Source of the DNA: Plantactinospora mayteni
GTDB lineage: Bacteria > Actinomycetota > Actinomycetes > Mycobacteriales > Micromonosporaceae
Assembly (NCBI RefSeq): GCF_016862935.1
Contig: NZ_BONX01000023.1
Span: 62,001-126,000 of the forward strand
Reading direction: 5' to 3'
Length of the DNA stretch: 64,000 bases
How positions within the stretch are numbered: position 1 is the stretch's first letter; each line of letters starts with the position of its first letter. The notes under the pieces were generated by a model. The model was not told the origin of the DNA, searched no databases, and saw nothing but the letters and a program-made list of their open reading frames with translations. The translations under genes and the position numbers were made by a program. Below, one piece after another: positions 19,024 through 54,371 of this stretch.

Positions 19024-19040
19024 GTTAGCTCCGGTCGAGG
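19002..19040. repeat. 16-bp tandem repeat over a stop codon
   Basis: GTCGAGGTTAGCCCCG (19002-19017) and GTCGAGGTTAGCTCCG (19018-19033) are followed by a partial third unit (GTCGAGG, to 19040). The stop codon of the 736-aa gene (19025-19027) is inside the second unit. It is probably a slippage product at a deletion or duplication boundary. Confidence 0.7.
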
Positions 19041-21235
19041 CCGAGGGCGGTGAGGGCGGCTGGGAGGGTCGGCGCGGTGCAGAGTTGGCGTACGCCGTCG
19101 CGTTCGTGGACGAGGAGTCGGCAGGTGACGCCGTCGTAGTGGACGGCGACGGGCTGGCCGGCGTGGTGTCGGGCGAGCCGGCGGACGAGTGGTACGGGAT
19201 CGTCGACCACGATCGGGGTCGGGGTCTGCGGCACCGGGATCGGTTGGGCGGGATCGTCAGGGACGCGACGGGCGACGGCGAGTTCGAGACGTTCGAGGCG
19301 GTACGCGATGGCGGCTTCCGGGGTACGCGAGGCGGGAAAGGTGTTCGGGGCGACCGGCCGCCCCGGTGGTTCGACGTCGACGTCCCAGCATTCGCCCTGG
19401 ACGAGTCGGAGGTCTCCGGCGTTGTCGACGTGGTCGACGAGGGTGACCGTGACGGTGAGGCGCAGCCCGAGGACGAGTCGGACCAGGTCGGCCAGGGATG
19501 GCACGTCGGGCCGTCGGGCCAGTACGAACAGCCGGGCGCCGGGCTGGCCGCGGGAGGCTTGGTGCAGGTATTCGGTGAGCGGGTCGGCGGCGGGGTGCGG
19601 CAGGGTGACGATGCCCTTGCGCAGGTCGTGGTGGACTTCGCCGCCGCCGTCGAGTTCGGTGAGGTCGTCGGGGCGTACCCCGAACCGGTCGGCCCAGGTC
19701 GCCAGCCGGAACGGGTCGGGAAGCTGGTGCACCGGCTTGCCGCCGGGTTGGGTCGCGACGTGCGGCGCCGACACCCGTTCGCCGACATGCCAGCCCTGCT
19801 CACCGGCCTGCCAGGTGTGCTCGTCGCCGTGCCAGGTGAGGTCGTCGGCCCGCCAGCCATGCCGGTAGACCTGCCAGTGCAGGTGGACGACCCGGCCAGC
19901 CAGGTCGGTGAGCGTGACGGTCAGGCCCCGATAGAGACGGTGGCTGTCCCGACAGGTGTCGCAGGGCAGCGCCGACGGGCTGCGACCGGCACCAGAGCAC
20001 TTCGGGCAGTCCGGGTCGGCCCGCCCGGTGAACAGGACACAGTCGCAGCGGCGGAGCCGACTGTGCGGATCGCAGTCGGGGCAGTCGACGTACGGGACGG
20101 GTGGGCCCTGCCACGACGGTGCCGGCGGCTGCCAGCCGCGCCGCAGGATGCTGGTCTCGTAGAGGTAGATCTGCCCGGTGTCCCGTTCGCTGAACGTCTC
20201 GGCGGTGTCGGCGATCCGCAGACTGGTGTGCCACCAGCGGCCGTCCCGCCAGATGGCTTGCGCCCCGGCGGTCGGGGCGCCGGTGTGCAGGTCGGTGCAG
20301 TCGGCGAGCATCCGCCGTTCGATCTGGTCCAGGTCGACGGCTGGCGGGTCGACCGGTGGCCGGTCGCTGGCGGTCATGTGGTGGGCCGGGGCGGTCCGAC
20401 CGCGCGCCTGAAGGTCGTAGAACGCGTCGAGGTCGCTGTTCTCCGCGATCGCGCTCGTCAGGTCGTCGGCGCCGCCACGGGCGTCGATCGGTACCGCCCC
20501 GCCCGGCACCTCGTAGCGGAGATGCCACGTCGGGTCGGCGGCGGGATGCCGACGCCGGGCCTCCAACACCAGGTCCAGCCGGAGCAGCTCGGCCAGCCGG
20601 CAACGCCGGGTCAGCTCACGGACCGGATCGGGCGGCGGATCGGCGGCAGTACGGCCGAGGAAGAGCTGCCACGCATCATGGCAGTGCGAGGCGATCGCCT
20701 CGGCCTCCAACGCGGCCCGGGTCCCGGGCGGCAGGTCCGGACGCCACCGGGACGGCAGCAACACCACCGGCCCGTCCGCAGACCCGGGCGGGTTACGCAC
20801 CTCGGCCCACGAGCCGGCGCCGACGGCGGCGGCCAACTCGTGCAGCAGCGGCGCCACCGGCAGATGCCAGCTTCCGCCGTCGCCCAGCCACTGCGCCGGT
20901 TCCACCACTCCGGGTACGACGTTCGCCGACGCCACCGCCCCGGTGTCCACGTTCGCCACCGTCAAGACGAGTTGGGCACGCAACCGCCCGGTCTGCCGGC
21001 ACCGGTGGCACGGTTGCGGCACCGTGCCCATGCCCCGGCAGAGCTGGCAGTCCTGGTATGCCTCCCCGCTCCCCCACTGCCCGACGTCGACGAGCAGCCG
21101 GTCACCGCCGCTCGTGCAGGGGCAGTCGGCGAGGACGAAGGTGAGCCGGTCGCAGGCGGGGCAGTCGAGCACCGGCGGACCGGCGTCGGGATCGGGTGGT
21201 CCGGTTCCGGCGTCAGGATCGATCGCCCCGGTCAC
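19025..21235 (-). CDS. Large protein with two DnaJ-like zinc-ribbon clusters
   Basis: About 736 aa. There are two cysteine-rich clusters of the DnaJ central-domain kind. The first (about residues 20-80) contains CPACD, CPC, CQLCRGMG and CHRC; the second (about 395-460) contains CPDCD, CDC, CPKCSGAG and CDTC. Each could hold two zinc ions. No J-domain, ATPase or nuclease motif is present. The rest is rich in Trp, His and Asp and was not recognised. The GTG start at 21235 overlaps the stop of the 84-aa gene (GTGA), and that gene is itself coupled to a DivIVA-like protein, so the three probably act together. Function unknown; a scaffold or chaperone-like role is only suggested by the zinc ribbons. 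Confidence 0.75.
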   Translation of the reverse strand: MTGAIDPDAGTGPPDPDAGPPVLDCPACDRLTFVLADCPCTSGGDRLLVDVGQWGSGEAYQDCQLCRGMGTVPQPCHRCRQTGRLRAQLVLTVANVDTGAVASANVVPGVVEPAQWLGDGGSWHLPVAPLLHELAAAVGAGSWAEVRNPPGSADGPVVLLPSRWRPDLPPGTRAALEAEAIASHCHDAWQLFLGRTAADPPPDPVRELTRRCRLAELLRLDLVLEARRRHPAADPTWHLRYEVPGGAVPIDARGGADDLTSAIAENSDLDAFYDLQARGRTAPAHHMTASDRPPVDPPAVDLDQIERRMLADCTDLHTGAPTAGAQAIWRDGRWWHTSLRIADTAETFSERDTGQIYLYETSILRRGWQPPAPSWQGPPVPYVDCPDCDPHSRLRRCDCVLFTGRADPDCPKCSGAGRSPSALPCDTCRDSHRLYRGLTVTLTDLAGRVVHLHWQVYRHGWRADDLTWHGDEHTWQAGEQGWHVGERVSAPHVATQPGGKPVHQLPDPFRLATWADRFGVRPDDLTELDGGGEVHHDLRKGIVTLPHPAADPLTEYLHQASRGQPGARLFVLARRPDVPSLADLVRLVLGLRLTVTVTLVDHVDNAGDLRLVQGECWDVDVEPPGRPVAPNTFPASRTPEAAIAYRLERLELAVARRVPDDPAQPIPVPQTPTPIVVDDPVPLVRRLARHHAGQPVAVHYDGVTCRLLVHERDGVRQLCTAPTLPAALTALGLDRS

Positions 21236-21486
21236 CGGTCCAGCTCCAGACTCGCGCACGGCACCTCGTGTTCGGCCCGCAGCGCACAGCGTCTGCCGGC
21301 GCCGAGGAGCCGGTCGCAGAAGAGGCGGGACTGCACCGTCTGGTCGTCCTCGACCGAGACGGTCGCCTCGGCCTGGTCGACCTCGGGCAGCCGACCGAGA
21401 GTCCGGGCCAGCATCCGGGCCGCCTGCCGGGCCGCGTCCGGGTCCGGCGCGGTGAAGGGCACGTGTACGACGTAACGGTCGACCAT
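21232..21486 (-). CDS. 84-aa partner protein of the DivIVA/zinc-ribbon operon
   Basis: A small acidic protein beginning MVDRYVVHVPFTAPDPDAAR with a ferredoxin-like beta-alpha-beta pattern and a Cys pair near the C-terminus (FCDRLLGAGRRCALR). Its ATG overlaps the upstream DivIVA-like stop (TGATG), and its stop overlaps the next GTG. Not recognised. Tight coupling on both sides indicates a fixed stoichiometry with its neighbours. Confidence 0.7.
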   Translation of the reverse strand: MVDRYVVHVPFTAPDPDAARQAARMLARTLGRLPEVDQAEATVSVEDDQTVQSRLFCDRLLGAGRRCALRAEHEVPCASLELDR

Positions 21487-21803
21487 CAGCGATCCACCAG
21501 CTCGCGTGCCGTCGTCGCCTGTCGGGACTGCCAGCGGCGCAACGCCTCCTTGATCCGCGCGTTCTGCTCCCGCACGGTCGCGACCTCGTTGTAGGCCCTG
21601 GCCAGGTCACCGGCGACCTGGTCGAGGAAGGCTGTCACCTCGGCCGGATCGACTCCCCGCCGAGCGAAGCCGACCAGGGAGAACCGGCGCAACCTGACCT
21701 GCGACGGCAGAAGCGGCCGGTACGCCGCCGACCGATACGCCTGACCGAGCCGCCGAGGCGACCTCCGACCCCGCCGGAGCAGCCACCGAAGCAGAACCCG
21801 CAC
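21486..21803 (-). CDS. DivIVA-domain small protein
   Basis: 105 aa. After a basic N-terminus, residues 35-80 match the DivIVA N-terminal domain pattern (RLRRFSLVGFARRGVDPAEV followed by TAFLDQVAGDL), which binds curved membrane and forms coiled-coil dimers; a short helical tail follows. Full DivIVA/Wag31 proteins are much longer, so this is a reduced version. The start is GTG 21803. It is the first gene of the three-gene operon and could place the zinc-ribbon protein at the pole or septum. Confidence 0.75.
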   Translation of the reverse strand: MRVLLRWLLRRGRRSPRRLGQAYRSAAYRPLLPSQVRLRRFSLVGFARRGVDPAEVTAFLDQVAGDLARAYNEVATVREQNARIKEALRRWQSRQATTARELVDR

Positions 21804-22345: not shown

Positions 22346-22491
22346 TCCACGAAGGAAGCGCGGGGCAGGACTGCACTCCCCAACGCTCTCGGATAGTGTT
22401 CGGTCGGCCACGCAGGCGTAAGGCCGAAGGACCGGCTAGGTCGGCCTGCGTCGCGACTTGTCGTACGGCAACCGCAACCGGGGAGGATCGC

Positions 22492-22755
22492 ATGGCCAGT
22501 ATCGAGGAAGTCAAAGCAGCGCTTCTTCAGGCCGCCGAGCAGGGAAACACCACACTCAGCCAGATCCGCTCCGCCGCCGAGCACACCGAGCAGGTGCTCA
22601 ACCGACTCAGGGTCGTCGCCGCCGGGACCAACCACCCCAAGATTGCGGAGGCGATCCAACGCGCCGAGCAGAGCAAGCAGCGTCTGTCCGAGGCAGCCAC
22701 GTCCATCCAGGGCAGCTCTGCCGCCGCCCGCGAATACGTCAGCGTCCTCGGCTGA
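22492..22755 (+). CDS. Small helical protein A (87 aa) of the GntR operon
   Basis: All-helical, with heptad-like spacing (SIEEVKAALLQAAEQGNTTL, AIQRAEQSKQRLSEAATSIQ) ending in AAAREYVSVLG. It has the size and helical hairpin style of WXG100/ESX-like proteins but no WxG turn, and no signal peptide. The ATG at 22492 is preceded by GGGGAGG. It is similar in length, composition and ending to the next gene (AAxEYxSxL), so the two look like tandem paralogues. It may belong to a Micromonosporaceae-restricted DUF (possibly DUF6244), but I cannot confirm this. Confidence 0.75.
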   Translation: MASIEEVKAALLQAAEQGNTTLSQIRSAAEHTEQVLNRLRVVAAGTNHPKIAEAIQRAEQSKQRLSEAATSIQGSSAAAREYVSVLG

Positions 22756-22778
22756 TCCGCGTCCGACGGAAGATCCCG

Positions 22779-23036
22779 GTGGACATTAGGCAGGTCAGAG
22801 CAACCATCAACCAGGGTGAGCAGGCAGCCAAGCAAGGCATCAGCCTCATCCAGGAGATGCAGGCTCGGATCGAACAAGCTCAAACGTCGGCCGCCGCGAC
22901 AGCCCACGACAGTGCCCATCGCGAGGTTGAAGCAGGTCTCGGCAAGCTCAAGGAGGCGGTGAAAGAGTCGTCTCGGGTCGCCGGCCTGCTGCACTCTGGT
23001 GCGTCTGCCGCCCATGAGTACGCCTCCAAACTCTGA
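22779..23036 (+). CDS. Small helical protein B (85 aa), paralogue of A
   Basis: All-helical (IRQVRATINQGEQAAKQGIS, LGKLKEAVKESSRVAGLLHS), ending HEYASKL like protein A. The start is GTG 22779 with GGAAGA 5 nt upstream; a longer in-frame ORF upstream overlaps protein A and is not supported. The stop overlaps the ATG of the next gene (TGATG), giving coupled translation. The pair A/B may form a heterodimeric helical bundle in the manner of ESX partners; this is inference from size and pairing. Confidence 0.72.
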   Translation: MDIRQVRATINQGEQAAKQGISLIQEMQARIEQAQTSAAATAHDSAHREVEAGLGKLKEAVKESSRVAGLLHSGASAAHEYASKL

Positions 23037-23713
23037 TGGCCCGCGTATCGGTGGGGGATGTCGTCGCCCAGTTTCGGGCCGTACTGGGGATCGTCGACGA
23101 GGCCGCCATAGGGGCCGCACGCGCCCAACGGGAGGCTGAGCAAACCCAAGCCGCCTACGCAGAGGTGTCCCAAGGCACAGCGGACCGGTTGATGCGTAAG
23201 GCGGTTGTGGATTCCCGGACTGCCGCCGAGAAAGCGGGTAAGACTGCACGACTGTTATCGGAAGCTGCCGAGCATTTCACCACATACGTAAACATCATCG
23301 CGCCAGGCACCGTGCCACCCCGTTCATCAGCGCCCGAGGCGATTCCGGAGGGCGAACGGGTGGTTTCGGATGCGATGGCCCGGCGCAAGCGGGCAACTGG
23401 CTTTCTGGATCGAGCGGCGAGACGTGCTGACGACGTCAAAGACTCCGTCGCCTCGGCCACCAAGGCGGTCGAGGAGGGCACAAAGATCGCCTTGAAGCAG
23501 ATCAAGGGCGATCGTCCACCTACCGGTGGCGCCCCATCGTCGACAACCACCACATCTACTCCACAGCCCGCTCCTGCTCAATCCCCGCCAGCACACGAGG
23601 CCGTCTCCGCGCTCGTCGTCACTGCCCTCGGAGCCGCCCTGGTCGGCCGGGCTGGCATCGACTACATCAAGAAACGGCTCAACAGAAGGAACCAAGATGG
23701 CGATCAAAAGTGA
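23036..23713 (+). CDS. Helical protein with C-terminal membrane anchor
   Basis: 225 aa. The N-terminal half continues the helical pattern of A and B (FRAVLGIVDEAAIGAARAQR, TARLLSEAAEHFTTYVNII). Then come a basic helical stretch (about 110-155), a Thr/Pro-rich linker, one hydrophobic segment near the end (ALVVTALGAALVGRAGIDYI) and a positively charged tail (KKRLNRRN). It therefore looks tail-anchored, with most of the chain in the cytoplasm. It is coupled to B by TGATG and overlaps the next gene by 17 nt. Function unknown; it could dock the A/B proteins at the membrane. Confidence 0.75.
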   Translation: MARVSVGDVVAQFRAVLGIVDEAAIGAARAQREAEQTQAAYAEVSQGTADRLMRKAVVDSRTAAEKAGKTARLLSEAAEHFTTYVNIIAPGTVPPRSSAPEAIPEGERVVSDAMARRKRATGFLDRAARRADDVKDSVASATKAVEEGTKIALKQIKGDRPPTGGAPSSTTTTSTPQPAPAQSPPAHEAVSALVVTALGAALVGRAGIDYIKKRLNRRNQDGDQK

Positions 23714-25233: not shown

Positions 25234-27390
25234 TCACCAGGAGTTGACGTCGGTTGCCGCCGGCTGGCCGGGGTGGTGGGCGTCGGCACCGTCGGTCGGC
25301 TGGCCCGGTCCCGCTCCGAGGCGAATAGTCCAGATGGCGGCGGCGACGAGGGCCGCGTACAGGAGGAAGGTCAACACCGGGGGCCCGACGATCATGCCCC
25401 GAACGACCAGCAACGGAGCGAGGACCACCTGACCGAACTCGTAGCTGGCGGCGGTGCCGGATAGTACGAGCACGGCCGCCGCGGTGATCACGATGACGCG
25501 GGTGCGGGGGGCGGGTCGCCGCCCGATGGAGCGCCGCGCCAGTGTCACGGCCGCGCTGGCCACCAGGGCCAGCATGATCACAAGGCTGATCGCGCGCGGC
25601 CAGTTCGCGTCGACCAGGACCATCAGCCCGTCCAGTACACCCATGACGGGCGCGCAGGCCAGTCGCACCCATCCCGGCCACAGCCTCGGACGCGACTCGA
25701 TCGGCGCCGTTTCGTGCTGCCGGCCTGGGCTTGTCCCGAGCCGGATCATCCAGATGGCCACGCCGCTGACGACCCCGGCCGGGAGACAGAGGACCAGCGC
25801 GATGCGTGGCCCCAGCGCCATGTGGTCCCAGACCAGATCCTCGCCGAGCATCACCGAGGCGATCAGTGATCCCACCGCGTAGCTGGCGACGCTACCGAAC
25901 AGCGCCAGCATGACCGTCCCGGTGACCGCGATGTCGCGGCGGCGGGTTGGCGGGCCGGCTTCCGGTGCGGATCGCTGCCCGGGCCAGAGCCGTGCCAGCG
26001 TCACGGCCGCAGCGGTCACCAGTGCCAGCACGACCACGAGCCCGATGGCGATACCAGCGTCGAACGCTTCCTGGGTCAGGATTATCAGCCACGCCACGAC
26101 GGCGACGACAGGCGCGCAGGCCAGCAGTGCCCATGCCGGCCACGGCGTCGGACGCGACTCGACCGGGGTCGGGGTCGGGGTCGGGGTCGGTTCGCGCGGC
26201 TGGTTCGGTTCGCGTGACCGGGAGCCGACGACTGGCTGATCCGGCTGATCCAGTGCGTCGGATGGTAGGGCGCCGCTGCCAACTGGGCTGGTCTCGGCGA
26301 TCGGTGCCGCGAGTGTGCGGGGTACGGCATGGAGGGCGCCTTCGGCGACGACGAGTTCGGGATGGTCGAGGGCGGTGGGGGCGATCCGGAGGGTGCGGTG
26401 CAGGAGGGAGGCGACCAGGGGTACCCGGGAGGAGCCGCCGACCAGGAAGATGCCGGCGATCTCCTGCCTGGGTACGCCGGCGTCGCGCAGCAGAGTGGCG
26501 GTGAGGTCGACGGTGCGGTCCAGGTGGGGGCGGGCCGCCGTCTCGAACTCGTCGCGGGTCACGTGCACGACGGTGTCGACCAGCGGGATGTGCAGGTCGG
26601 CGTTGGTGTGCCGGGACAGTTGTTCCTTGGCGGTGCGGGCATCGCGCCACAGCTGCTGGTGGGCGCGCTGGTCGGCGTCGGTCTGCGGCCACTCCAGCCG
26701 TCCCCACGCGTCACCGCCGCTGGTGGTGGACGCGCGGGCGTGGGCGACGACGGTGGCGTCGAGGTCCAGACCGCCGACGTCGTCGAGCCCGGCGCTGGCC
26801 ACCACCTCCAGCCCATCCTCGGTACGGCGGACGATGCTGACGTCGCAGGTGCCGGCGCCGAGGTCGTAGACCACGAGGCACCGGCCGACCGGCAGGTCCT
26901 TGCCGAGGACATCGGCGAAATACGCCGCGGCGGCGACCGGTTCGGCGACGAAGGCGCATGCGCCGAGATGTGCCTGTGACGCGGCGGTGGCCAGGACATC
27001 CAGGCGGGTACGGCTCCAAGCGGCCGGATGCGTGACCACCGCCGTCTCCGGCGGTTGGCCGGCGACCCGGCGTGCCTCGGCGCCCACCCGGGTCAGCACC
27101 GCGACGATCGCGTCGGTGACCGCGATCTCCCGATCGGCGAGCCAGAGCACGCGATCGTCGATCCGCCGCTTCGGGTTGGCCTCGAAACCCGCCGGGTGGG
27201 CCGACGCGGCGCGTTCGGCATCCGTCCCGGCCAGCAGTGGGCCGGCATCGGAGCCGGCGAACACCCCGGACGGCAGCAGCGGCGAGGCGTCGAACAGCAA
27301 CGGCTTCACCCGCCCGTCCGGGGCGGCGAGCACCGCCACCGTCGACGAGGTTCCGAAGTCGAGTCCCAGCCGATATCCACCGATTGCCAC
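25234..27390 (-). CDS. Hsp70-type ATPase fused to a duplicated membrane module
   Basis: 718 aa. Residues 1-355 form an Hsp70/actin-fold ATPase: phosphate-1 motif GLDFGTSSTVAVLA, phosphate-2 VVYDLGAGTCDVSIV, adenosine loop IFLVGGSSRVPLV. There is no substrate-binding domain. After a Pro/Thr linker come two related membrane modules of about 150 residues, each starting ESRPxxWPxWxxLACAPV and ending IWxIRLGxxPG, with about four membrane segments each. So the membrane part is an internal duplication. The start is GTG 27390. Hsp70-like ATPases with membrane tails occur in actinomycetes, but the doubled module is unusual. The role is unknown; it may be signal or stress sensing at the membrane. Confidence 0.85.
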   Translation of the reverse strand: MAIGGYRLGLDFGTSSTVAVLAAPDGRVKPLLFDASPLLPSGVFAGSDAGPLLAGTDAERAASAHPAGFEANPKRRIDDRVLWLADREIAVTDAIVAVLTRVGAEARRVAGQPPETAVVTHPAAWSRTRLDVLATAASQAHLGACAFVAEPVAAAAYFADVLGKDLPVGRCLVVYDLGAGTCDVSIVRRTEDGLEVVASAGLDDVGGLDLDATVVAHARASTTSGGDAWGRLEWPQTDADQRAHQQLWRDARTAKEQLSRHTNADLHIPLVDTVVHVTRDEFETAARPHLDRTVDLTATLLRDAGVPRQEIAGIFLVGGSSRVPLVASLLHRTLRIAPTALDHPELVVAEGALHAVPRTLAAPIAETSPVGSGALPSDALDQPDQPVVGSRSREPNQPREPTPTPTPTPVESRPTPWPAWALLACAPVVAVVAWLIILTQEAFDAGIAIGLVVVLALVTAAAVTLARLWPGQRSAPEAGPPTRRRDIAVTGTVMLALFGSVASYAVGSLIASVMLGEDLVWDHMALGPRIALVLCLPAGVVSGVAIWMIRLGTSPGRQHETAPIESRPRLWPGWVRLACAPVMGVLDGLMVLVDANWPRAISLVIMLALVASAAVTLARRSIGRRPAPRTRVIVITAAAVLVLSGTAASYEFGQVVLAPLLVVRGMIVGPPVLTFLLYAALVAAAIWTIRLGAGPGQPTDGADAHHPGQPAATDVNSW

Positions 27391-27517: not shown

Positions 27518-27939
27518 TCACTCCGTGTCCTCGTCGGCAATCCCGACGAGCCCGTCGGTCAGCGGGACCTGGAGCTCGGCCGCAAAATCGCGCAGCCGCC
27601 CGGCCAGCAGCTCCGTCCGGTCGTCCACGAAAAGGGTCCCGCCCCGCCCTCCCTCGCGGAGCCGGTGCCACGCCCAGAGCGGGATGCCGTGGCTCTCCAG
27701 GATGCCCCGGGCCGTCGGCTCCGCCAGCTCCTTCAACGCCGTCGCCAGGGTCATGTTCGGCGGGGTGGGCAGGACCAGCCGGTTCGCCGGCCGCTTGTCG
27801 CCGGCCACCACCGGGCGGAACACCTACGTCCCGCCCGAAGCGATGTGTCAGGCATGAGATGCATGTAGCGCCGATCCTCCGGCGCGACGGCCCGGAGTGC
27901 GGCCAGTGTAGGTTCCCACTTGTGACGACACTTTCCCAA
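27518..27939 (-). pseudogene. Frameshifted gene of unknown function
   Basis: Two consecutive frames both look coding. From about TTG 27939 one frame reads WEPTLAALRAVAPEDRRYMH, then LMPDTSLRAGR. Near 27824-27840 coding continues in another frame (FRPVVAGDKRPANRLVLPTP) to LTDGLVGIADEDTE and the stop at 27518. One inserted or missing base near a TAGGTG sequence would restore a protein of about 140 aa. It is either a recent pseudogene or a sequence error. The family was not recognised. The intact frame after the shift has its own in-frame TAG immediately before a GTG, so an independent 101-aa gene is less likely. Confidence 0.5.
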
Positions 27940-29006: not shown

Positions 29007-30164
29007 ATGGACCATGATCGGGCGCCATCCGTGCCGATTCTTGGGCAGCCGGCCCCCGGGCAGCCCTCAGCGGCTCCACCCGGACCGGTCTCCGGCAGCC
29101 GCCGCCCAAAACTCGGCTCGGGGATCGTCGCGGGCGGACTGGCTCTGGCCGTACTCTGCTGCGCCGGGGCAGCGGTGCTGACCTTCGTGGCCCGCGACCG
29201 GTTCCTCGGCGGCCCGCCTGGCAGCACCACGATCACTGTGGAGGCGGTCGGTCCAGCCGGGACGGTCCCGGACGAGTCTGCGATCGAACGAACCAGCCGG
29301 ATGCTCGCCGATCGGGCCGAAGCCGCCGGGTTGGCCGACCCGTCGGTGAAGCGTTCCGGCGACCGCCAGATCGTCGTACGGGTCGCCGGAGTCGACCAGG
29401 AAGACGAACTGCGCGCACTGGTGGCCGTCGGTGACCTCCGATTCCGCCGAGTACTCGCCACCACGCCCGATCCCGACGGCGGAGCCGCCGCCACCCCGGC
29501 AACACCGGCTCCGCCGGGCACACCATCGCCCAGCCGCGAGCAGGTGATCGCCAAGCTCGGTCGGGCTTACGAGGTCGCCCAGTCGCTGACCCGCGATCAG
29601 CCCGCTCCGGCCCAACTCGACCCGGAGACCCGGGAAGCGCTCCTCCCGTTCGCGAGCCTCTCCCCCGCCGAAGTCGCCGTACTGCCGGCCGACGTGCTGG
29701 CCGTCGTCCCGGAAGTAGCCTGCGCACAACTGCTGGCGCGTCCGGTCGAGGCGCGTGGGGACCCCGGCGAGCGGTCGGTCACCTGCGACCGCGCCGAGCC
29801 GCCGAGCAGGTATCTGCTCGACTCTGCCGCACTGTCGTCGGCGGAGGTCCGGGATGCGAAGGCAACGATGGACGAGCAGGGCGGCGGTTGGCTGGTCACC
29901 GTCAGCTTCACCACAGCCGGGCAGCAGCGGTTCACCGAGCTGACCCGGGCGGCGTCCAGCGTCCCGGACGGCCTCAACCAGGTGGCCATCGTCGTGGACG
30001 ACGTGGTGCTCTCCGCACCGGCGGTCACGACCGTACTCACCGGCGACGTCCAGATCTCCGGAAGCCTCACCCGGTCGACGGCGGAGGCGCTGGCAGGCCA
30101 ACTGCGCTCTGGTGCACTTCCCGTCGCGCTGCGGATCGTCGACCTGACCAGCACCCCGGACTGA
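29007..30164 (+). CDS. SecD P1-head-like membrane-anchored protein
   Basis: 385 aa. A Pro-rich cytoplasmic N-terminus precedes one membrane segment (GIVAGGLALAVLCCAGAAVL). The outside part resembles the SecD P1 base (TITVEAVGPAGTVPDESAIE, RQIVVRVAGVDQEDELRALV) and, after a Pro/Thr linker, the P1 head (FTTAGQQRFTELTRAASSVP, VVLSAPAVTTVLTGDVQISG). The six-helix channel domain of SecD is missing, so this cannot replace SecD; it may bind exported proteins or regulate the translocase. ATG 29007 has no visible ribosome-binding site, but a TCTACT hexamer lies about 14 nt upstream, so a leaderless start is possible. Confidence 0.82.
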   Translation: MDHDRAPSVPILGQPAPGQPSAAPPGPVSGSRRPKLGSGIVAGGLALAVLCCAGAAVLTFVARDRFLGGPPGSTTITVEAVGPAGTVPDESAIERTSRMLADRAEAAGLADPSVKRSGDRQIVVRVAGVDQEDELRALVAVGDLRFRRVLATTPDPDGGAAATPATPAPPGTPSPSREQVIAKLGRAYEVAQSLTRDQPAPAQLDPETREALLPFASLSPAEVAVLPADVLAVVPEVACAQLLARPVEARGDPGERSVTCDRAEPPSRYLLDSAALSSAEVRDAKATMDEQGGGWLVTVSFTTAGQQRFTELTRAASSVPDGLNQVAIVVDDVVLSAPAVTTVLTGDVQISGSLTRSTAEALAGQLRSGALPVALRIVDLTSTPD

Positions 30165-45140: not shown

Positions 45141-48100
45141 TCAACCCGACCGTGTCGCCCCGGCGGGTGGCGTCAGCAGGTTGCCGCGTACCCGGGGCAG
45201 GCAGCGCGGCAGCGCGGCGGTCCGTCCGGCGACCAGACTCAGTCCGGTCGGACGCAGCCGCAGCTCGATCGCGCGCAGCCGGTCCGGTACGGGCAGCGCC
45301 GCCACCCGGGCCCGGACGGTCGGGTCGTCGAACAGCTCCTCGGCCCGCAGCGTGAGGGACGTGCCGGTGTCCACTCCGGAGAGGTCGAGCAGCCGGCCGG
45401 CGTCGGCCACGTTCAGCCCGTACGCGGCCACCCAGTCGACGTCGACGCCGTCGAACATCGCCGGCACGTCGGCGAAGGTGGCCAGCCGGACCACCGGGTG
45501 CAGGAAGGCGTCCACGTCGTACGCCGCCCGGGTCGCGGCGTCCGCTCCGCCGGCCGCGGTGGCGCCGTAGCGGCCCGGCGCGAGCGAGAGGCCGAGGGCC
45601 CGGACGACCGCGAGGTCCGGCTCGCCGCCGCCGGTGCCGGCGAGCAGCCGGGCCAGTTCCCGGTCCAGCAGCCGGTCGTGTTCGCCGAAGGCGTGGTAGA
45701 GCCAGCAGAAGAGCAGGCCGTCCGGGGTCAGCCGGTCGACGAGCCAGCCCAGCCCGGCGACCGGGTCGGTTAGGTGGTGCAGCACACCGGAGCAGACCAC
45801 CAGGTCGAAGCTGCCGGGGAGCCGCAGTTCGGGGATGCCGCCGAGTACGAAGTGGACGTTGGTGGCGCCGTGCCGGGCGGCGAGCGCCCGGGCCACCGCC
45901 AGGGAGCCGGGCGACGGGTCGACCCCGACGAACCGCGCCTCCGGATGGCGCAGGGCGAGCGCCACCAGCCGGTGCCCGGTGCCACACCCGGCGTCGAGCA
46001 CCCGCCAGCCGGCCAGCCCGTCCTCCTCGACCAGGTACGCCACCGCGTTGGCCACGTCGTGCAGCAGCTCGCCCGCGTCGTCCGGGGAGGGATACGGGTA
46101 CCGGTCGTAGAGCCGCACCACCTCGTCCAGCCCCGGACCGCCGGCCGGCGGGCGGCTCAGGTGCTCGGCCGGCTCGTCCAGCCCTGGACCGCCGGCCGCT
46201 GGACGGCTCCGGTGCGCGGCCGGCTCGTCCAGCCCTGGACCGCCGGCCGGTGGACGGCTCCGATGCTCGGCCGGTCGGTGGCGTGGGGCGTCGGCGGGGG
46301 TGGGGCGCGGGGCGTCGGGGGGCAGTCGGCGGGCGAGGTCGGCGACGGTGGGTGACCCGTACAGGTCGGTGACGTCCAGATCGGTGCCGAACTCGGTACG
46401 CAGCCGCCCCAGCAGGCGGGTGGCGAGCAGTGAGTGGCCGCCGAGGTCGAAGAAGCCGTCGTCGGCAGCGACCGCCGGCAGCTCCAGCAGCTCGGCGAAG
46501 ATCCGGCCCAGCGCCTCCTCCCGCCCCGGCGACGGCGGGCGGGGCGAGGACACCGCCGACCCGGCCAGCTCCGCCCGGTCGAGCTTGCCGTGCGGGGTAC
46601 GCGGCAGCGCGGTCACGAACTCCAGCGTCGCCGGTACCGCCGCGCCGACCAGCCGCTCGACGAGATGGCGGCGCAGTTCGGCGGCGGTCACCTCGCCCGG
46701 CACGGCCGGTACGACGTAGCCGACCAGCCGGACGCCGCCATCCCGCCCCGGTCCGGTCAGCACCGCCGCCTCGACCACCCCCGGGTGCTCGGCGAGCGTC
46801 GCGGCGACCTCGGCCGGCTCGACCCGGACACCCCTGATCTTCACCTGCTCGTCCACCCGGCCGACGAACTCGAATCCGCCGTCGGTACGGCGCCGCGCCA
46901 GGTCGCCGGTGCGGTACATCCGGGAACCGGCCGGACCGTACGGGTCGGGCAGGAACGCGTCGGCGGTCGGCCCGGGGCGGCCCAGGTAGCCCCGGGCCAG
47001 CCCGGCACCGGCCAGGTACAACTCCCCGGTCCGGCCGTCCGGAACCGGCCGCAGCTCGGCGTCCAGCAGGTACGCCCCGACCCCGGATCTCGGCCGGCCG
47101 ATCGGCGGGCGGCCCGGAGTCGTACCGTCGTCGTCCCAGGTGGTGGCGTAGACGGTCGCCTCGGTCGGCCCGTACGCGTTCACCACCCGCCCGGCACCCA
47201 GCCCGGTACGGGCGGCCCGGACGGTCGCCGCGCCCAGTGCCTCGCCGGCCAGCACGACCGCCGGCACCCGGAACTCGGGCGACGGGGCGAGCCGGAGCAG
47301 GGCGTCGAGCCGGGATCCGACGGTGGCGACCAGGGTCGGCGGCCGGTCGGCGAGCCCGGGCAGCGCCGACAGGTCGGCCACCAGCTCGACGCTGCCGCCG
47401 CTGCACAGTGGCGCGAAGAGTTCGAAGACGGAGACGTCGAAGCCGAGCGGCGTCGACGCGAGTACCCGGGCCAGCCGGTCCGGGCCGAACTCGGCGGCTG
47501 CCCAGCGGGCCAGTTCCGCCGCCGCCCGGTGCGGCACCAGCACCCCCTTGGGCCGACCGGTGGTGCCCGAGGTGTAGAGCAGGTACGCCGGATGCTCCGG
47601 GTGCAGCGGCGCTCGGGGGTCGGTGTCGGGCCGGCCCGACACCTCCGGCGGTACGGCGTCGGTCAGTACGACGACCGGGTCCGCCTCGGCGAGTACCGCC
47701 TCGACCCGGGCGGCCGGGCCGGGCTCGACGGGCAGGTAGGCGGCGCCGGACTTGAGTACGGCGAGCACCGCCACCACGAGTTCGGCGGAGCGGCTCATCC
47801 GCAGTGCCACGATCCGCTCCGGCCCGGCCCCGTGCGCGACGAGGTGCTGGGCGAGCCGGTTGGCCCGGGCGTCCAGTTCGGCGTAGGAGTAGCCGACTCC
47901 GGCACAGCGCAGCGCGACCGCGTCCGGGGTCCGGGCGACCTGCTCCGCGAAGAGCCGGGTCAGCGTGCTCGGCGCCGCGCCCGCCTCCGACCGGAGGTCC
48001 GGTGTCCCGGCTGTCGCGGCGGACCGGTGCACGGACTGCTGCGGCTCCCTGGCGGGCCGGGGAAGGGACCGGTCGAGATCCTCGGCGATCGTGGTCAGCA

Positions 48101-51100
48101 GTTCGGTCAGTTCGCGGCCGAACTCGGCGACCGTCTCGGCGGTGAACTGCGCGGGCTGGTAACGCAGTACCAGGCGCAGCGCCGGGCCGGGATAGGCGAA
48201 GAGGCCGAGCGGGTAGTGCAGCGAGTGGTGGATCTCGACGTCCGGCACCGCCGCCGCGGCCTCGGCGTCGACCGGGTAGTTCTCGAAGACGGTGAGGGTG
48301 TCGAAGAGCGCCGGCAGGCCCGCCGCCCGCTGGATGTCGGAGAGCCCGAGGTGGTGGTGCGGGGTCAGCCGGGACTGCTGGTCCTGCACCCGGCGCAGCA
48401 GGTCGACCAGCCGCTCGCCGGGCTGCGGGGCCAGCCGTACCGGCACGGTGTTGAGGAAGAAGCCGAGCATCCGTTCGATCCCGGGGACCTCGGGCGGCCG
48501 ACCCGAGACGGTACTGCCGAAGACCACGTCCGAGCCGCCGACGAGCCGGCCGAGCAGCAGACCCCAGGCGCCCTGCACCACCGTGTTCAGCGTGACGCCG
48601 CCGGCCCGGGCAACCTGGGTGAGCCGGTCGGTGAGGTCGGCGGTGAGCTGCACGCCCACCTGTCGGGCCCACTCCGGACGGGTCCGCCGGCCGGGCGGCG
48701 CCACCAGCGTCGGTTCGGCGAACCCGGCCAGCGCCTCCCGCCAGGCGGCTGTCGCGGCAGCCCGGTCCTGCCGGACCAGCCAGGCCAGGTAGTCCCGGTA
48801 GCTGCCCTCCGGCACGGCAGGTGCACCGGTCACGGCGGCGGCCAGTTCGGCGGCGAGCAGCGGCAGCGACCAGCCGTCCAGCAGTACGTGATGACAGGTC
48901 AACGCCGCCCGGTAGCGCTCCGGGCCGAGCCGGAACACGGTCAGCCGCAGCAGCGGTGCCGTGGTGACGTCGAACCGGCGTACCCGGTCGGACTCGACCA
49001 GTCGGGTCAGCGTCGCCGCCCGCTCCGGTTCGGGTACGCCGGTCAGGTCCACCTCCTGGTAGGGCAGCTCGACCTCGGCCGGCACCACCCGGACCGGCTG
49101 GCCCGACTCCGGAAACCAGAACGCGGCCCGCAGGTGCGGGTGCCGGGCGAGCAGGGTGGCCAGGCCGGCGCGGAGCGAGTCCGGCCGCCAGGTCGCCGGC
49201 AGCCCGAACACCGTCTGCACGGTGTAGACCTCCGGCGCCCGGGTGTCGTGCACCGAGTGGTAGAGCAGGCCCTCCTGGAGCGGGGTCACCGGCCAGACGT
49301 CGACCAGGTCCGGACAGGTCGCCTCCAGCCGGGCCACGTCCGCGTGGCACAGCGACACCAGCGGCAGGTCGGCGGGGGTACGGCCGCCGATCCCCGGCCG
49401 CCCGGCGTGCGCGGTGAGTGCCGCCAGCACCCGGGTCCAGAGTTCGGCGAGCCGGCGCAGGTCCGGTTCGGTGAAGACGGCCGCCGGCCAGGAGAACGTG
49501 CTGACCAGGTGCGGTCCGTCGGCGCCGTCCTCGGTGTACGCGTTCACCTCCAGCGGGTGCGCCAGCGGGGCCCGGACATCGGCGCCGCCGCGTACGTCCC
49601 GGCCCTCGACGGCCGGCGTCCAGTCGGCGGCCTCGGCCGTGGCGCCGGCGAGCCGGCCGAGGTAGTTGAAGCAGACCTCCGGCTCGGGCAGTTCCCGCAG
49701 TCGGGCGGCGGTCTCCGGGTTGAGGTACCGGAGCAGGCCGAAGCCGAGTCCGTGCCCCGGTACGGCGCGCAGCCGGTCCTTGACCGTTCCGAGCAGCCGG
49801 CCCAGCTCCGGCCCGCCGGCCCAGACGTCCGTCCAGTCCACTCCGGACAGTTCGAGCCGGACCGGGTGCACGCTGGTGAACCAGCCGACGGTCTGGGCCA
49901 GGTCGACGTCGTCGGTGAACGGCTCCCGACCGTGCCGCTCCAGGTCGACCAGGACTGTCCCGTCGACCTCGGAACGCCAGGCGGCCACCGCCAGGCCGAA
50001 CGCGGTGAGCAGGACGTCCTCGACGCCCGCGTGGTACGCCGCCGGCAGCACGGTGAGCAGCGCGGAGGTCTGCTCGCGCGGAGTGCGTACCGTCATCTTC
50101 CGCTGGGTGGCGACGGTGTCGCGGGCCGGGTCGAGCCGGCGCCCGGCGAGCGGCGCCGGCGGCCGGTCCAGGGTGGCGGTCCACCAGGGCAGCTCGGCGC
50201 GGAGCGCCGGGTCCAGGGCCCGGGCGGCGAGCAGTTCGGCCCAGCGGCGGAACGACGTGCCGACCGGCGCTGGCGGCGGTGGCGGTGGCGTGGCCGGTGT
50301 GCCGTCCCCGACCGACGCTGGCGGCGGTGGCGTGGCCGGTGTGCCGTCCCCGGCGGCCCGCCAGGCGTCGGCGAGCTGGGGCAGCAGGATCCGCCAGGAG
50401 ACCCCGTCCACCACGAGGTGGTGCAGGACCAGCAGCAGCCGTCCCGGGCGGTCCGGGCCGAGGTCGAACCAGACCGCCTGGAGAGTCACCCCGGCCTCCG
50501 GCGCCAGCCGGCGCGGGGCGGCGTCCGCCTCGGCCCGGATCAGCTCGGGCAGCGGCACCGCGCCGGTCGCGTCGACCCGGCGGAGTTGGTCGGCCACCCG
50601 GACCGCGCCAGGGGCGGTCACGTCGAGACCCGGACGGCGGAGTTGATCGGCCACCCCGACTGCAGCAGGGGCGATCACGTCGAGACCCGGCCCGCGGAGT
50701 TGGTCGGGCACCCCGACCGCGCCGGGGGTGGTCACGTCGAGGCCCGGTCCGGCGGTGAGCCGCAGCCGCAGCGCGTCGTGCCGGTCGACCAGCGACTGGA
50801 GCGCCGTGGCCAGCCGGTCCAGCCCGAGTTCCGGCGGTACGGCCAGCACCACCGCCTGGTGGTGGGCCCCGATCGGGCCGCCCCGATCCAGGGTGGCCCG
50901 GACGATCGGGGTGAGTGGCACCCGGCCGCCCCCGGGTTCCGGTCCGGTCCCGGAGTCCGGCCCCGTCCCGGAGTCCGGTCCCGATCCGGTCGGCGCCGTC
51001 CGGCCGGCCCGGCGGGCGAGCCGGGCCACCGTACGGTGCTCGAACACGTCGCGGGCGCTCAGTGTCAGTCCGGCGGCCCGGGCCCGGCCGACGAGCTGGA

Positions 51101-54100
51101 TCGCCACGATGCTGTCCCCGCCCAGCACGAAGAAGTCGTCGTCGACCCCGACCGCCGGCAGCCCGAGCAGCCCGGCGATCACGGCACAGAGCAGCCGCTC
51201 CTGCGCGGTCTCCGGCGCACGGCCGGCCGCCCGTACCTCCGGCCGGGGCAGCGCGGCCCGGTCGAGTTTGCCGTTCGTGGTCAGCGGCAGCCGGTCGAGG
51301 CAGACGATCGCCGACGGCACCATGTAGTCGGGGAGTACGACACCGAGCCAGGTCGCCAGGTCCGCCGGGTCGACGCCGCCGGCCGCCGGTACGACGTAGC
51401 CGACCAGGCGCCGGCCGCCGGACTCCTCGTCCCGGGCCACCACCGCGGCCCGGGTCACCCCGGGCTGGGCCAACAGGGCCGCCTCGATCTCGCCCAGCTC
51501 GATCCGGTAGCCGCGGATCTTCACCTGCTGGTCGGCGCGGCCGAGGAACTCCAGCCGGCCGTCGGTGGCCCGCCGAGCCAGGTCGCCGCTGCGGTAGAGC
51601 CGGGCGCCGGGTGGTCCCCACGGGTCGGGTACGAAGCGCTCGGCAGTCAGCGCCGGATGCCCCAGGTAGCCCCTGGCCAGTCCGGCACCACCGACGTGGA
51701 TCTCCCCGACCGCGCCGGTCGGCACCGGCTCGCCGTACCGGTCGAGCAGGCGTACCACCAGGTCGGCCAGGGGGCGGCCGATCGGGCTGACTCCGCTGTC
51801 GAGGTCGGTGTCGGTGAGCCGGTGGGTGGTGACGTGCACGGTGGTCTCGGTGATGCCGTACATGTTGACCAGGGCCGGCCGGTGCAGGCCGAGGTGCCGT
51901 ACCCAGCCGGCCAGCGCGGCCGGCTCCAGCCGCTCACCGCCGAAGACCACCGCCCGCAGCGCGAGCCGGTCGCGCCACGGGCCGCCCTCGTCGACCGCCG
52001 CGACCAGGCCGGTGAACGCCGCCGGGGTCTGGCTGAGCACCGTCACCCGGTGCGCCGCGAGCAGTTCGGCGAGTTCGGCCGGTACCCGGGCCACGTCCGG
52101 CGGTACCACCACGAGCCGGCCGCCGTGCAGCAGCGGACCCCAGATCTCCCAGACCGAGAAGTCGAAGGCGTACGAGTGGACCATCGTCCAGGTGTCGGCC
52201 GGTCCGCAGTTCAGGTCGGCGGCGACGGCGGTGAACAGCCGGGCCGCGTTGGCATGCGTCACCGCGACGCCCTTGGGCCGCCCCGTCGAGCCCGAGGTGT
52301 AGATCACGTAGGCGACGTTGTCGGGTACGGCCCGGGGAGGCAGGTCGCTCGCCGGCAGCGTGTCGAGCACCGGATCGTCGTCGAGCACCACCACCGGACC
52401 GGGGTGGATCGTCGGGGCCGCAGCCTGATGTCGGCGCTCGGTCAGCAGGATCGCCGCCCCGGCGTCCGCCGCCAGGAAGCGCAGCCGGTCGACCGGGTTG
52501 GCCGGATCCAGCGGCAGGTATCCGGCACCGGACTTCAGCACCCCGAGCAGCGCCGCGACCAGCTCCGGCCCACGCTCCAGGCAGACCCCGACCAGGGATT
52601 CCGGGCCGGCGCCGAGGTCGCACAGCCGCCGGGCGATCCGGTTGGCCCGCTCGTTCAACTCCCGGTACGTCCACTCCGTCCGGTCGTACGCCACCGCGAC
52701 CGCGTCCGGGTCCTGCCGTACCCGTGCCTCGAAGACCTCCGGCAGGCAGCGTCCCGCCTCGGCGGGCGGCTCCGGCACGGCGGCCAGTTCGACCCGCTCG
52801 TCCGGAGCCAGCATCCCGAGCCGGGAGAGCGGGGTCTCGGGTGCTTCCGCCAGATGGCCGAGCAGCCGTACGTAGTGTGCCGCGAGCCGGTCGACGGTGG
52901 CTGGGTCGAAGAGCGCGGTCGCGTACTCGATCTCGCCCGTCACGGCACCGTCGGCGTGTTCGGTCAACTGGACGGCGAGTTCGAACTTCGCCACCTGGCC
53001 GTCAACCGGTTCCCGGGTCAGCAGCACGTCCGCCAGCCGGCTCGCCGGCAGCTCGTCGCGGAGCGCGAACGCGACCTGGAACAGGGCCGGCCGGGACGCG
53101 TCCCGCTCCGGGGCCAGCTCCCGGACGAGCTGCTCGACCGGTACCTCCTGGTGCGCCAGCGCGGCCAGGGTGGTTTCCCGGACCGACCGGAGCAGGGTGG
53201 CGAAGCTCGGATCCCCGCTCCACCGGGTACGCAGCACCAGCGTGTTGACCACGAAGCCGACCAGCCCGGCGAGTTCCGGATCGGTACGCCCGGCGATCGG
53301 TGCCCCGACCGCCACGTCCCGGCTGCCGGTGTAGCGCCCGAGCAGCAGTTGGAAGGCGGCGAGCGTCACCATGAACAGGCTCGCCCGGTGTGCCCGACCC
53401 AGCTCCCGGAGCCGCTCCGCCGACGGCGCCGGTACGCCGAACCGCGCGACGGCGCCGGCCCAGTTCCGGGTGGTGGCCCGGGGCCGGTCGGTCGGCAGCT
53501 CCAGCGGGGCGAGGTCGGCGAGCTGGCGGCGCCAGTAGTCCAGTTCGGTGTCGACCAGCCCGCCGGCGTGCCGGGCCCGTTGCCAGCCGGCGTAGTCGGC
53601 GTACTGCGGGGTGACCGGGGGCAGGGCCGGGGGCCGCCCCTCGACGTGTCCACGGTAGAGGGTGCCCAGCTCGGCCAGGAGCGGCGACAGCGACCAGCCG
53701 TCCAGGGCGATGTGGTGCCAGACGGTCAGCAGCACGTGCTCGTCGTCGGCGGTCTTCAACAGCCAGCTCCGGGTCGGCCACTCCCGGTCCAGCGCGAACG
53801 GCCGCCGGGACTCCGCCCGGGTCAGCTCGCCGACCCGGCGTTCCGGGTCCGGTTCGCCGGTGAGGTCGAGGAGCGGCAGTTCGACCGGGCCGGGCGGGTC
53901 GACGAGCTGCGCGGGCTCGTCGGCGACGCGCACGTACCGGGTCCGCAGGATCTCGTGCCGGGCCACCACCTCGGTCCAGGCCCGCCGCCAGGCCGGCACG
54001 TCGAGCTTGCCGCGCAACCGGAAGGAGCCGGTCATCAGGTACGCCGGGCTGCCCGGGTCGAGCTGGTCGAGCAGCCAGAGCTGGCGCTGCCCGGCCGACA

Positions 54101-54371
54101 GCGGGATCGGTACGCCCCGGTCGACCGGCCCGATCCGGCGCCCCCGCCCGACCCCGGCCGACCGTCCGGCCAGCCGCCGCCGCAACAACTCCGCCCGCCG
54201 GGCCAGTGCGTCATCGCCCGCCCCGCCGGCCGGCACGCCGGACTCCTGACCCGCCGCCGAACCGCCGGGCTCCTTCCCCGCGACCGGACCGCCGGGCTGC
54301 TGTCCTGCTGTCGGCACGCCGGGCTGCTGTTCCGCTGTCGGCACGCCGGGCTGCTCTCCGTCGGCCGTCAC
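45141..54371 (-). CDS. Nonribosomal peptide synthetase, modules 3-4, with terminal methyltransferase
   Basis: 3,076 aa: C (HHIALDGWS near 220)-A ([11 protein letters not shown] near 690)-T (LGGDSIV near 1085)-E ([10 protein letters not shown] near 1320, NYLGR)-C (HHVLLDGWS near 1830)-A ([11 protein letters not shown] near 2270)-T (LGGHSLL near 2643)-methyltransferase ([11 protein letters not shown] near 2795). The first A domain's binding-pocket residues read as DFWSVGMVH, close to the Thr code; with the E domain this predicts D-Thr. The second reads DVFTVAAVY, which I cannot assign with confidence (possibly aromatic). There is no thioesterase or reductase, so release is unexplained. GTG 54371 overlaps the upstream NRPS stop (GTGA). 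Tandem repeats interrupt the E domain and the last linker. Confidence 0.95.
46122..46274 (-). repeat. 51-bp in-frame tandem repeat in the NRPS T4-methyltransferase linker
   Basis: Three units of exactly 51 bp (starts at 46122, 46173 and 46224) encode about 17 residues each of the form [17 protein letters not shown]. They form the flexible link between the last carrier domain and the methyltransferase, so copy number may vary without breaking the frame. Confidence 0.85.
50581..50751 (-). repeat. 57-bp in-frame tandem repeat inside the E domain
   Basis: Three 57-bp units (starts 50581, 50638 and 50695) encode about 19 residues each ([19 protein letters not shown] type). They are placed between the first strand region ([10 protein letters not shown]) and the catalytic HH motif of the epimerisation domain, a position where the fold normally has a short loop. 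The units differ by a few bases, so the expansion is not very recent. Confidence 0.85.

Follow-up and report, generated by a model that had tools for sequence, protein, structure and literature searches.

Results

The Hsp70-Type Protein and Its Membrane Tail

The open reading frame (ORF) at 25234-27390 on the minus strand of the window, by which we mean the whole 64,000-nucleotide stretch of Plantactinospora mayteni DNA that was analysed, starts with a GTG codon and codes for a protein of 718 amino acids. Its N-terminal part (residues 1-356; 26323..27390, minus strand) was delimited as an Hsp70 nucleotide-binding domain (NBD) from its Pfam match, its alignment with DnaK and its structural model. 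The Pfam HSP70 profile matches residues 96-352 (E 1.1e-31), and the match stops at position 368 of the 599 in the profile, so the protein lacks a peptide-binding domain, in agreement with the original prediction. No kinase domain was detected by Pfam in the protein, with HSP70 and a sub-threshold MreB match as the only hits. In the alignment with the Geobacillus DnaK (2v7y), which spans residues 8 to 353, the NBD has D11, K74, E150, D176, T181 and D183, which we take to be ATP-site residues by their roles in DnaK, and none of them varies in the 42 rows of a family alignment. The AlphaFold2 model of the NBD scores above 90 in most of its 10-residue blocks, and its comparison with the DnaK NBD 5obx gave a Z of 38.4 and an rmsd of 2.5 over 342 aligned residues, in support of a predicted DnaK-like actin-type fold that keeps the active-site residues. 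The domain also matches a phage protein family (phrog_22485, E 9.8e-26).

The NBD is followed by a Pro-rich, low-complexity linker (residues 357-410; 26161..26322, minus strand), which is predicted to be disordered, with pLDDT values below 50 at residues 363-415. The interdomain linker of DnaK-type Hsp70s is a conserved, hydrophobic segment of the DVLLLDV type, and no such motif was found when residues 357-410 were read by eye. Linker length varies across the family of NBD-only Hsp70s described below, and this variation, together with the predicted disorder, makes a mechanical coupling between the ATPase and the membrane part doubtful. The coupling of the membrane part to an ATP switch, which had been proposed from the sequence, thus finds no backing in a linker of this composition that has no recognisable Hsp70 coupling segment.

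The membrane part consists of two modules, defined by hydrophobicity and by the helices of the AlphaFold2 model. Module 1 (residues 411-552, 142 aa; 25735..26160, minus strand) has its helices at residues 419-440, 443-467, 482-515 and 528-553, and is connected by a short linker (residues 553-564; 25699..25734, minus strand; low pLDDT at 556-571) to module 2 (residues 565-692, 128 aa; 25315..25698, minus strand), with helices at 573-592, 599-622, 628-656 and 671-691. A short tail (residues 693-718 and the stop codon; 25234..25314, minus strand; low pLDDT at 704-718) ends the protein. Module 1 starts with ESRPTPWPAWALLACAPV and ends with IWMIRLG, and module 2 starts with ESRPRLWPGWVRLACAPV and ends with IWTIRLG, so the two related blocks can be read with the opening and closing motifs that had been described for them. 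They are 47-49% identical to each other, and their local BLOSUM62 alignment scored 229, whereas 2000 shuffles of module 2 gave a mean of 41, a s.d. of 7 and a maximum of 78, confirming the internal duplication that had been claimed. Four hydrophobic segments were counted in each module, matched by four long helices per module in the AlphaFold2 prediction, so that the modules agree in helix pattern as they do in sequence. The tail is, according to sequence and model, a tandem duplication of a four-helix membrane module, with eight predicted helices.

Loops 1-2, 3-4 and 5-6 of the tail are acidic and loop 6-7 is basic, whereas loop 7-8 and the C-terminal tail depart from the charge pattern of the other loops; these charges give a mild preference for a protein with its N-terminus inside. 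The AlphaFold2 model of residues 404-700 alone was poor (pLDDT 55), and a Foldseek search with the tail model against PDB chains returned no match at E 0.001 or better, a result that is uninformative on fold novelty. In a second look, the Z values for the tail model were at most 9.4, which is the range usual for helical bundles with the tool used. No plasmid match was found for the tail.

Gene Neighbourhood

Among the called neighbour proteins, the window shares only a LacI-like regulator with the loci of genomes G005, G004, G048, G002 (Plantactinospora alkalitolerans S1510), G063 (Actinocatenispora comari) and G064, and such unshared neighbours are consistent with the Hsp70 gene being a single-gene unit. 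Pfam recognised no J-domain, GrpE, full HSP70, GTPase or tubulin in any of the 19 neighbouring ORFs that were scanned. An ORF of 861 aa on the same strand as the Hsp70 gene (19025-21610, minus strand) gave weak NCBIfam DnaJ matches (E 3.6e-4) that may be due to chance, at DnaJ positions of about 180-220, presumably the zinc-finger region.

Several other features were observed in the window. The genes between 10900 and 33460, including the Hsp70 gene, are non-core genes that appear to be inserted into a translation gene cluster, the flanks of which we take to be DHH/rbfA/infB/nusA/rimP-like genes on one side and MATE/truB/ribF/rpsO/pnp-like genes on the other (by eye, except MATE, by Pfam). Just upstream of the Hsp70 gene, a small gene (27518-27823, minus strand) matches residues 454-554 of the 554-aa PDC-M55C, a defence candidate of PADLOC (E 4e-21), and looks like a 3' remnant. 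Three small adjacent ORFs at 22481-23713 (plus strand), the first two alike by eye in length and style, had no Pfam family above the cut-off, and the lone protein encoded at 29007-30164 (plus strand) has SecD P1-type domains without being a full SecD. Further away, 45141-61135 (minus strand) encodes two proteins with nonribosomal peptide synthetase domains, of 3031 and 2255 aa, the first also with a methyltransferase domain.

Two-Module Homologues

A search for homologues in a sample of 61 genomes turned up this two-module architecture in one further Plantactinospora genome, that of P. alkalitolerans. The two-module protein of P. alkalitolerans (L066) is 53% identical to that of P. mayteni over residues 5-697 of the latter, and the two tails are 56% identical over 285 columns; the frame is open and intact in both species, and both tails have eight hydrophobic segments at a laxer threshold. 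The presence of both modules in this independent species rejects an assembly duplication, the artefact that had been considered when the blocks were first noticed. Profile searches in 354 genomes of the family detected diverged two-module versions in Actinocatenispora, namely in A. comari and in genomes G064 and G065. Domain matches to both modules were obtained in A. comari and G064, with the second half of module 2 in a different frame in the latter; in G065 the NBD and the membrane part are read in different frames, and the frame changes once more within the latter. Breaks of this kind, in or before the membrane part, affect two of the three Actinocatenispora copies and are due either to frameshift mutation or to sequencing error. 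Actinocatenispora rupis gave a further, weak two-domain match (L144, E 1.6e-7, bias 28). In these profile searches the two-module duplication is rare, being found in two genera, and all the clear module matches sit on Hsp70 NBD proteins.

A single-module homologue was also sought, and none was confirmed by the profile searches in the 354 genomes of the family and 394 genomes from the class; as only 10 or 11 candidates were scored per genome, the absence of single modules is unproven. In the 394 class genomes, E 1e-4 was passed only by the P. mayteni protein and four weak partial matches, and the weak partial module matches outside the two-module set ranged from E 5e-6 to 7e-4. Candidates L045, L048, L049 and L051 were rejected because, by eye, two resemble FecCD-type permeases, one a further permease and one an NTPase with helices. 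No Hsp70 NBD was found in the loci of ten weak matches (L149-L152 and L156-L161), whose module scores were 45-78.

The dating of the duplication was achieved in part. Between both Plantactinospora species module 1 is 61% identical and module 2 is 52% identical, compared with 48% between the two modules within the P. mayteni protein, and for this reason the duplication probably predates the split of both tails. In contrast, the dS values of 0.44 between modules and 0.45 between the tails of the two species do not separate these events, and the duplication cannot be placed with the Actinocatenispora modules, which have diverged too far.

A Family with Diverse Tails

The P. mayteni genome gave 13 matches, among them eight long NBD-family genes, i.e., the one studied here and seven others at 43-54% identity in the matched parts. 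The best match was below E 1e-50 in 39 of the 61 genomes, and the other 22 gave weaker matches, as ordinary DnaK would give. The original prediction had overlooked both these eight same-genome paralogues and the relatives in 39 genomes, with their many unrelated tails. To describe the family we kept 114 distinct homologues from relatives and from named genomes (best 80 of 305), sampled mostly from Micromonosporaceae, and the membrane helices of their tails were predicted with a simple hydrophobicity threshold. Tails with three or more predicted helices were found in 15 of the 114 (among the matches listed). For the 107 uncut homologues with tails longer than 60 aa (named genomes, best 80 of 305), the number of predicted helices among the matches listed was none in 6, one in 85, two in 2, and three or more in 14.

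Of the 82 tails that reach 150 aa or more, 14 matched WD40 propellers (among the matches listed), and in the P. mayteni genome itself paralogue L004 has a WD40-like tail and L007 and L008 have PQQ-like repeats by eye. When the 15 tails with at least three helices were compared with that of P. mayteni, none among the matches listed scored above all the shuffles except those of L066, L052, L053 and L144, the last one weakly (z 5.3), and L119 (z 4.4) remained below the highest shuffle. Because the multi-helix tails beyond the two-module set and L144 show no detectable relationship to that of P. mayteni, these comparisons indicate that the actinobacterial family joins one NBD to many different, unrelated tails. 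The P. mayteni protein fits into this family of actinobacterial NBD-only membrane Hsp70s, with a homologous NBD, no peptide-binding domain and a variable tail bearing helices. In the titles and abstracts of the literature, mostly from non-subscription papers, no description of such a family was found.

One end of a 3.8-kb contig of the same genome (C101, 3478-3816; L062) carries part of a close Hsp70 paralogue, about 69 residues with 76% identity. This piece of NBD runs into TPR-like sequence (by eye), which corresponds to a broken gene or to an assembly join.

Histories of the NBD and the Tail

In a tree of 115 NBDs, that of P. mayteni was sister to the one from the WD40-tailed protein L012 of the same genus (support 0.991, among the matches listed), whereas the NBD of P. 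alkalitolerans grouped with those of the two-module proteins from Actinocatenispora (support 0.998). A second tree was made with 28 of these NBDs from around both clades, hand-picked after the first tree, and again joined P. mayteni with L012 (99/98) and P. alkalitolerans with Actinocatenispora (100/99). With these 28 NBDs, the AU test rejected the grouping of the P. mayteni NBD with the four NBDs of the two-module clade (p-AU 3.6e-6), and also with that of P. alkalitolerans alone (p 7e-60). In 30-residue steps, the identity of the protein with L012 is 57-83% as far as residue 360 and 10-37% beyond it, while the values with P. alkalitolerans are 40-73% up to residue 360 and 33-76% at 361-690. 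In this way, its closest partner changes where the NBD ends (around residues 355-380): the tail shares 56% identity with the P. alkalitolerans tail and is unrelated to the L012 tail. As the AU test rejects the grouping of the two-module NBDs, the NBD and the tail of the P. mayteni protein were recombined, with the breakpoint near the NBD end, and the two-module tail probably arose with the second NBD clade and was later joined to the WD40-type NBD of P. mayteni.

The silent divergence between the P. mayteni and P. alkalitolerans proteins (dS of 1.13 for the NBD and 0.45 for the tail) agrees weakly with this recombination, because its tail/NBD ratio of 0.40 is only just below the 0.50-1.72 found in eight control pairs, one of which (L018/L022) had a dS of 1.30 for the NBD and 0.65 for the tail. 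It is the tree test, and not dS, that carries the recombination claim.

A second case of tail replacement is possible in Actinocatenispora. A. comari and G064 are 91% identical at the DNA level through the NBD and upstream of it, and 95% identical downstream of the gene, but at this same syntenic locus the tail region gave no blastn alignment; A. comari and G065, in contrast, align over the full length at 90%. The tails of A. comari and G064 are 34% identical, with a dS of 0.75 versus 0.26 for the NBD, in a poor alignment; the break could thus come from tail replacement or from rapid divergence. Among orthologues from Actinoplanes, with NBDs 88-91% identical, tail identity falls to a median of 49% and a minimum of 40% without any exchange. 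This subfamily (L166-L195) shows one architecture in 29 of 30 loci, with a very variable linker followed by one C-terminal helix, and the thirtieth (L185) has a tail of 50 aa without a helix. Since a single architecture is kept there, the comparisons support tail exchange in places, not as a general process. Tail-anchored, single-helix Hsp70-NBD proteins of this subfamily were observed in 67 of 67 Actinoplanes genomes.

Selection on the NBD and the Tail

In eight control pairs with alignable tails, the dN/dS was 0.11-0.25 for the NBD and 0.28-1.02 for the tail, which was higher in all eight. For the P. mayteni protein, the values were 0.31 for the NBD against L012, 0.80 for the tail against P. 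alkalitolerans and 1.06 for module 1 against module 2. These ratios point to an NBD constrained by purifying selection and to faster-evolving tails, where the high values may reflect either weak constraint or diversifying selection, which the method cannot separate at such distances. When random substitutions were simulated, the tail of 282 codons was still open in 11-44% of the runs, so an open frame alone is no proof of constraint, and we consider that it supports constraint mildly.

Discussion

The duplication of the membrane module in the P. mayteni protein is rare, and the recombination between NBD and tail is a more telling feature of it, as is the wider family in which it is set. A membrane machine or sensor, as first guessed from the sequence, was a reasonable idea, and we can put it in a more defined form. 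The chances are about even (a probability of around 0.5) that the protein is a receptor-like, membrane-tethered ATPase switch of the Hsp70 type, and not a peptide-folding chaperone. The NBD would be in the cytoplasm, and the eight helices would form one integral-membrane sensor or anchor with short loops outside. The opening and closing of the NBD, driven by ATP, would probably make it a tethered switch for recruiting or releasing a partner in the cytoplasm: the tail would act as sensor or anchor, and the interaction in the cytoplasm would depend on the nucleotide state of the NBD. With a linker that is predicted to be disordered, proximity or oligomerisation would be likelier than a direct mechanical coupling. 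An exchange of tails would supply a new input to an unchanged ATPase output. Counting against the receptor-like switch, there is no conserved partner gene to suggest a function, and the tail dN/dS values and the frameshifts in Actinocatenispora could mean weak constraint.

A similar layout is known from receptor-type Ser/Thr kinases such as PknD, in which a cytoplasmic catalytic domain is connected through a flexible linker to a membrane anchor and a variable sensor, which can be a beta-propeller; in the P. mayteni protein an Hsp70 ATPase replaces the kinase, and there is no homology between them. With Hsp70/DnaK chaperones it shares the NBD fold and the active-site residues, but it differs in having a membrane-embedded tail and neither a recognisable coupling linker nor a peptide-binding domain. 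The NBD-only paralogues have the same NBD (40-67% identical in the 42-row alignment), also without a peptide-binding domain, and most of them end, like this protein, in a C-terminal membrane segment; unlike it, most carry one helix, some with a WD40 propeller added, instead of eight helices in two duplicated modules. What is new here is the duplicated module and the recombined NBD and tail within this kind of Hsp70-NBD membrane protein. HSP70s that lack the peptide-binding domain also appear, according to passages of PMC7159879, in the GAP1-N2 conflict systems, found mainly in actinobacteria and firmicutes, where their genes adjoin those of full HSP70, GrpE and GTPases. The P. mayteni protein is like them in its HSP70 domain and in its actinobacterial host, and unlike them in that no full HSP70, GrpE or GTPase was recognised in the 19 neighbouring ORFs scanned.

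Three other explanations have to be weighed against the receptor-like switch. The canonical DnaK-like NBD with its active-site residues, and the weak DnaJ-model matches (E 3.6e-4) in the 861-aa ORF, would suit a membrane-tethered platform for chaperone or co-chaperone work, with J-domain proteins and GrpE as its partners in the insertion, folding or remodelling of membrane proteins. Such a role seems unlikely to us for a protein that has no peptide-binding domain, that belongs to a family with tails too varied for a single folding task, and whose 19 scanned neighbouring ORFs gave no Pfam match to a J-domain or GrpE. The protein could also be a degenerating or weakly constrained paralogue, with an NBD left over from a large family and a membrane part that drifts under little selection, as the high dN/dS in the tail and between modules, the frameshifts in two of three Actinocatenispora copies, the broken-off NBD fragment on contig C101 and the several surrounding ORFs without a Pfam family would suggest. 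We consider this improbable, given that the NBD is under purifying selection (dN/dS of 0.31 against L012), that both Plantactinospora species keep an intact frame, and that the modules are 56% identical between them and retain their eight hydrophobic segments (at the laxer threshold).

A system for conflict or recognition at the membrane, combining a constrained ATPase with a fast, exchangeable tail for defence, kin or phage recognition, appears quite unlikely. Pointing towards it are the dN/dS of the tail above that of the NBD in all eight control pairs, the exchange-like break in the syntenic tails of A. comari and G064, the small upstream gene that matches a fragment of a PADLOC defence candidate, and the occurrence of HSP70s without a peptide-binding domain in GAP1-N2 systems, as reported in passages of PMC7159879. 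However, Pfam recognised no GTPase, tubulin or other conflict-system partner in the 19 scanned ORFs of the neighbourhood, the tail had no plasmid match, and the protein itself matches PADLOC weakly (PDC-M61B, E 2.2e-4), with no stretch passing on its own; moreover, linkers and membrane segments are expected to evolve faster without any conflict too.

Extending the receptor-like switch to the whole family, we put forward only tentatively, as something that may well not be the case, that actinobacterial Hsp70 NBDs constitute a receptor platform, a standard ATPase switch whose sensor tails, be they propellers, single helices or multi-helix membrane modules, are exchanged through recombination where the NBD ends, the P. 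mayteni protein being a polytopic instance whose duplicated sensor would have been joined to a second NBD lineage. Most of what is known about Hsp70s concerns their role as chaperones that bind peptides. Should actinobacteria maintain a set of Hsp70 ATPases that lack the peptide-binding domain, each on a different membrane tail, the Hsp70 cycle may be reused for membrane signalling, and the eight long paralogues of the P. mayteni genome would be a ready set for testing this idea.
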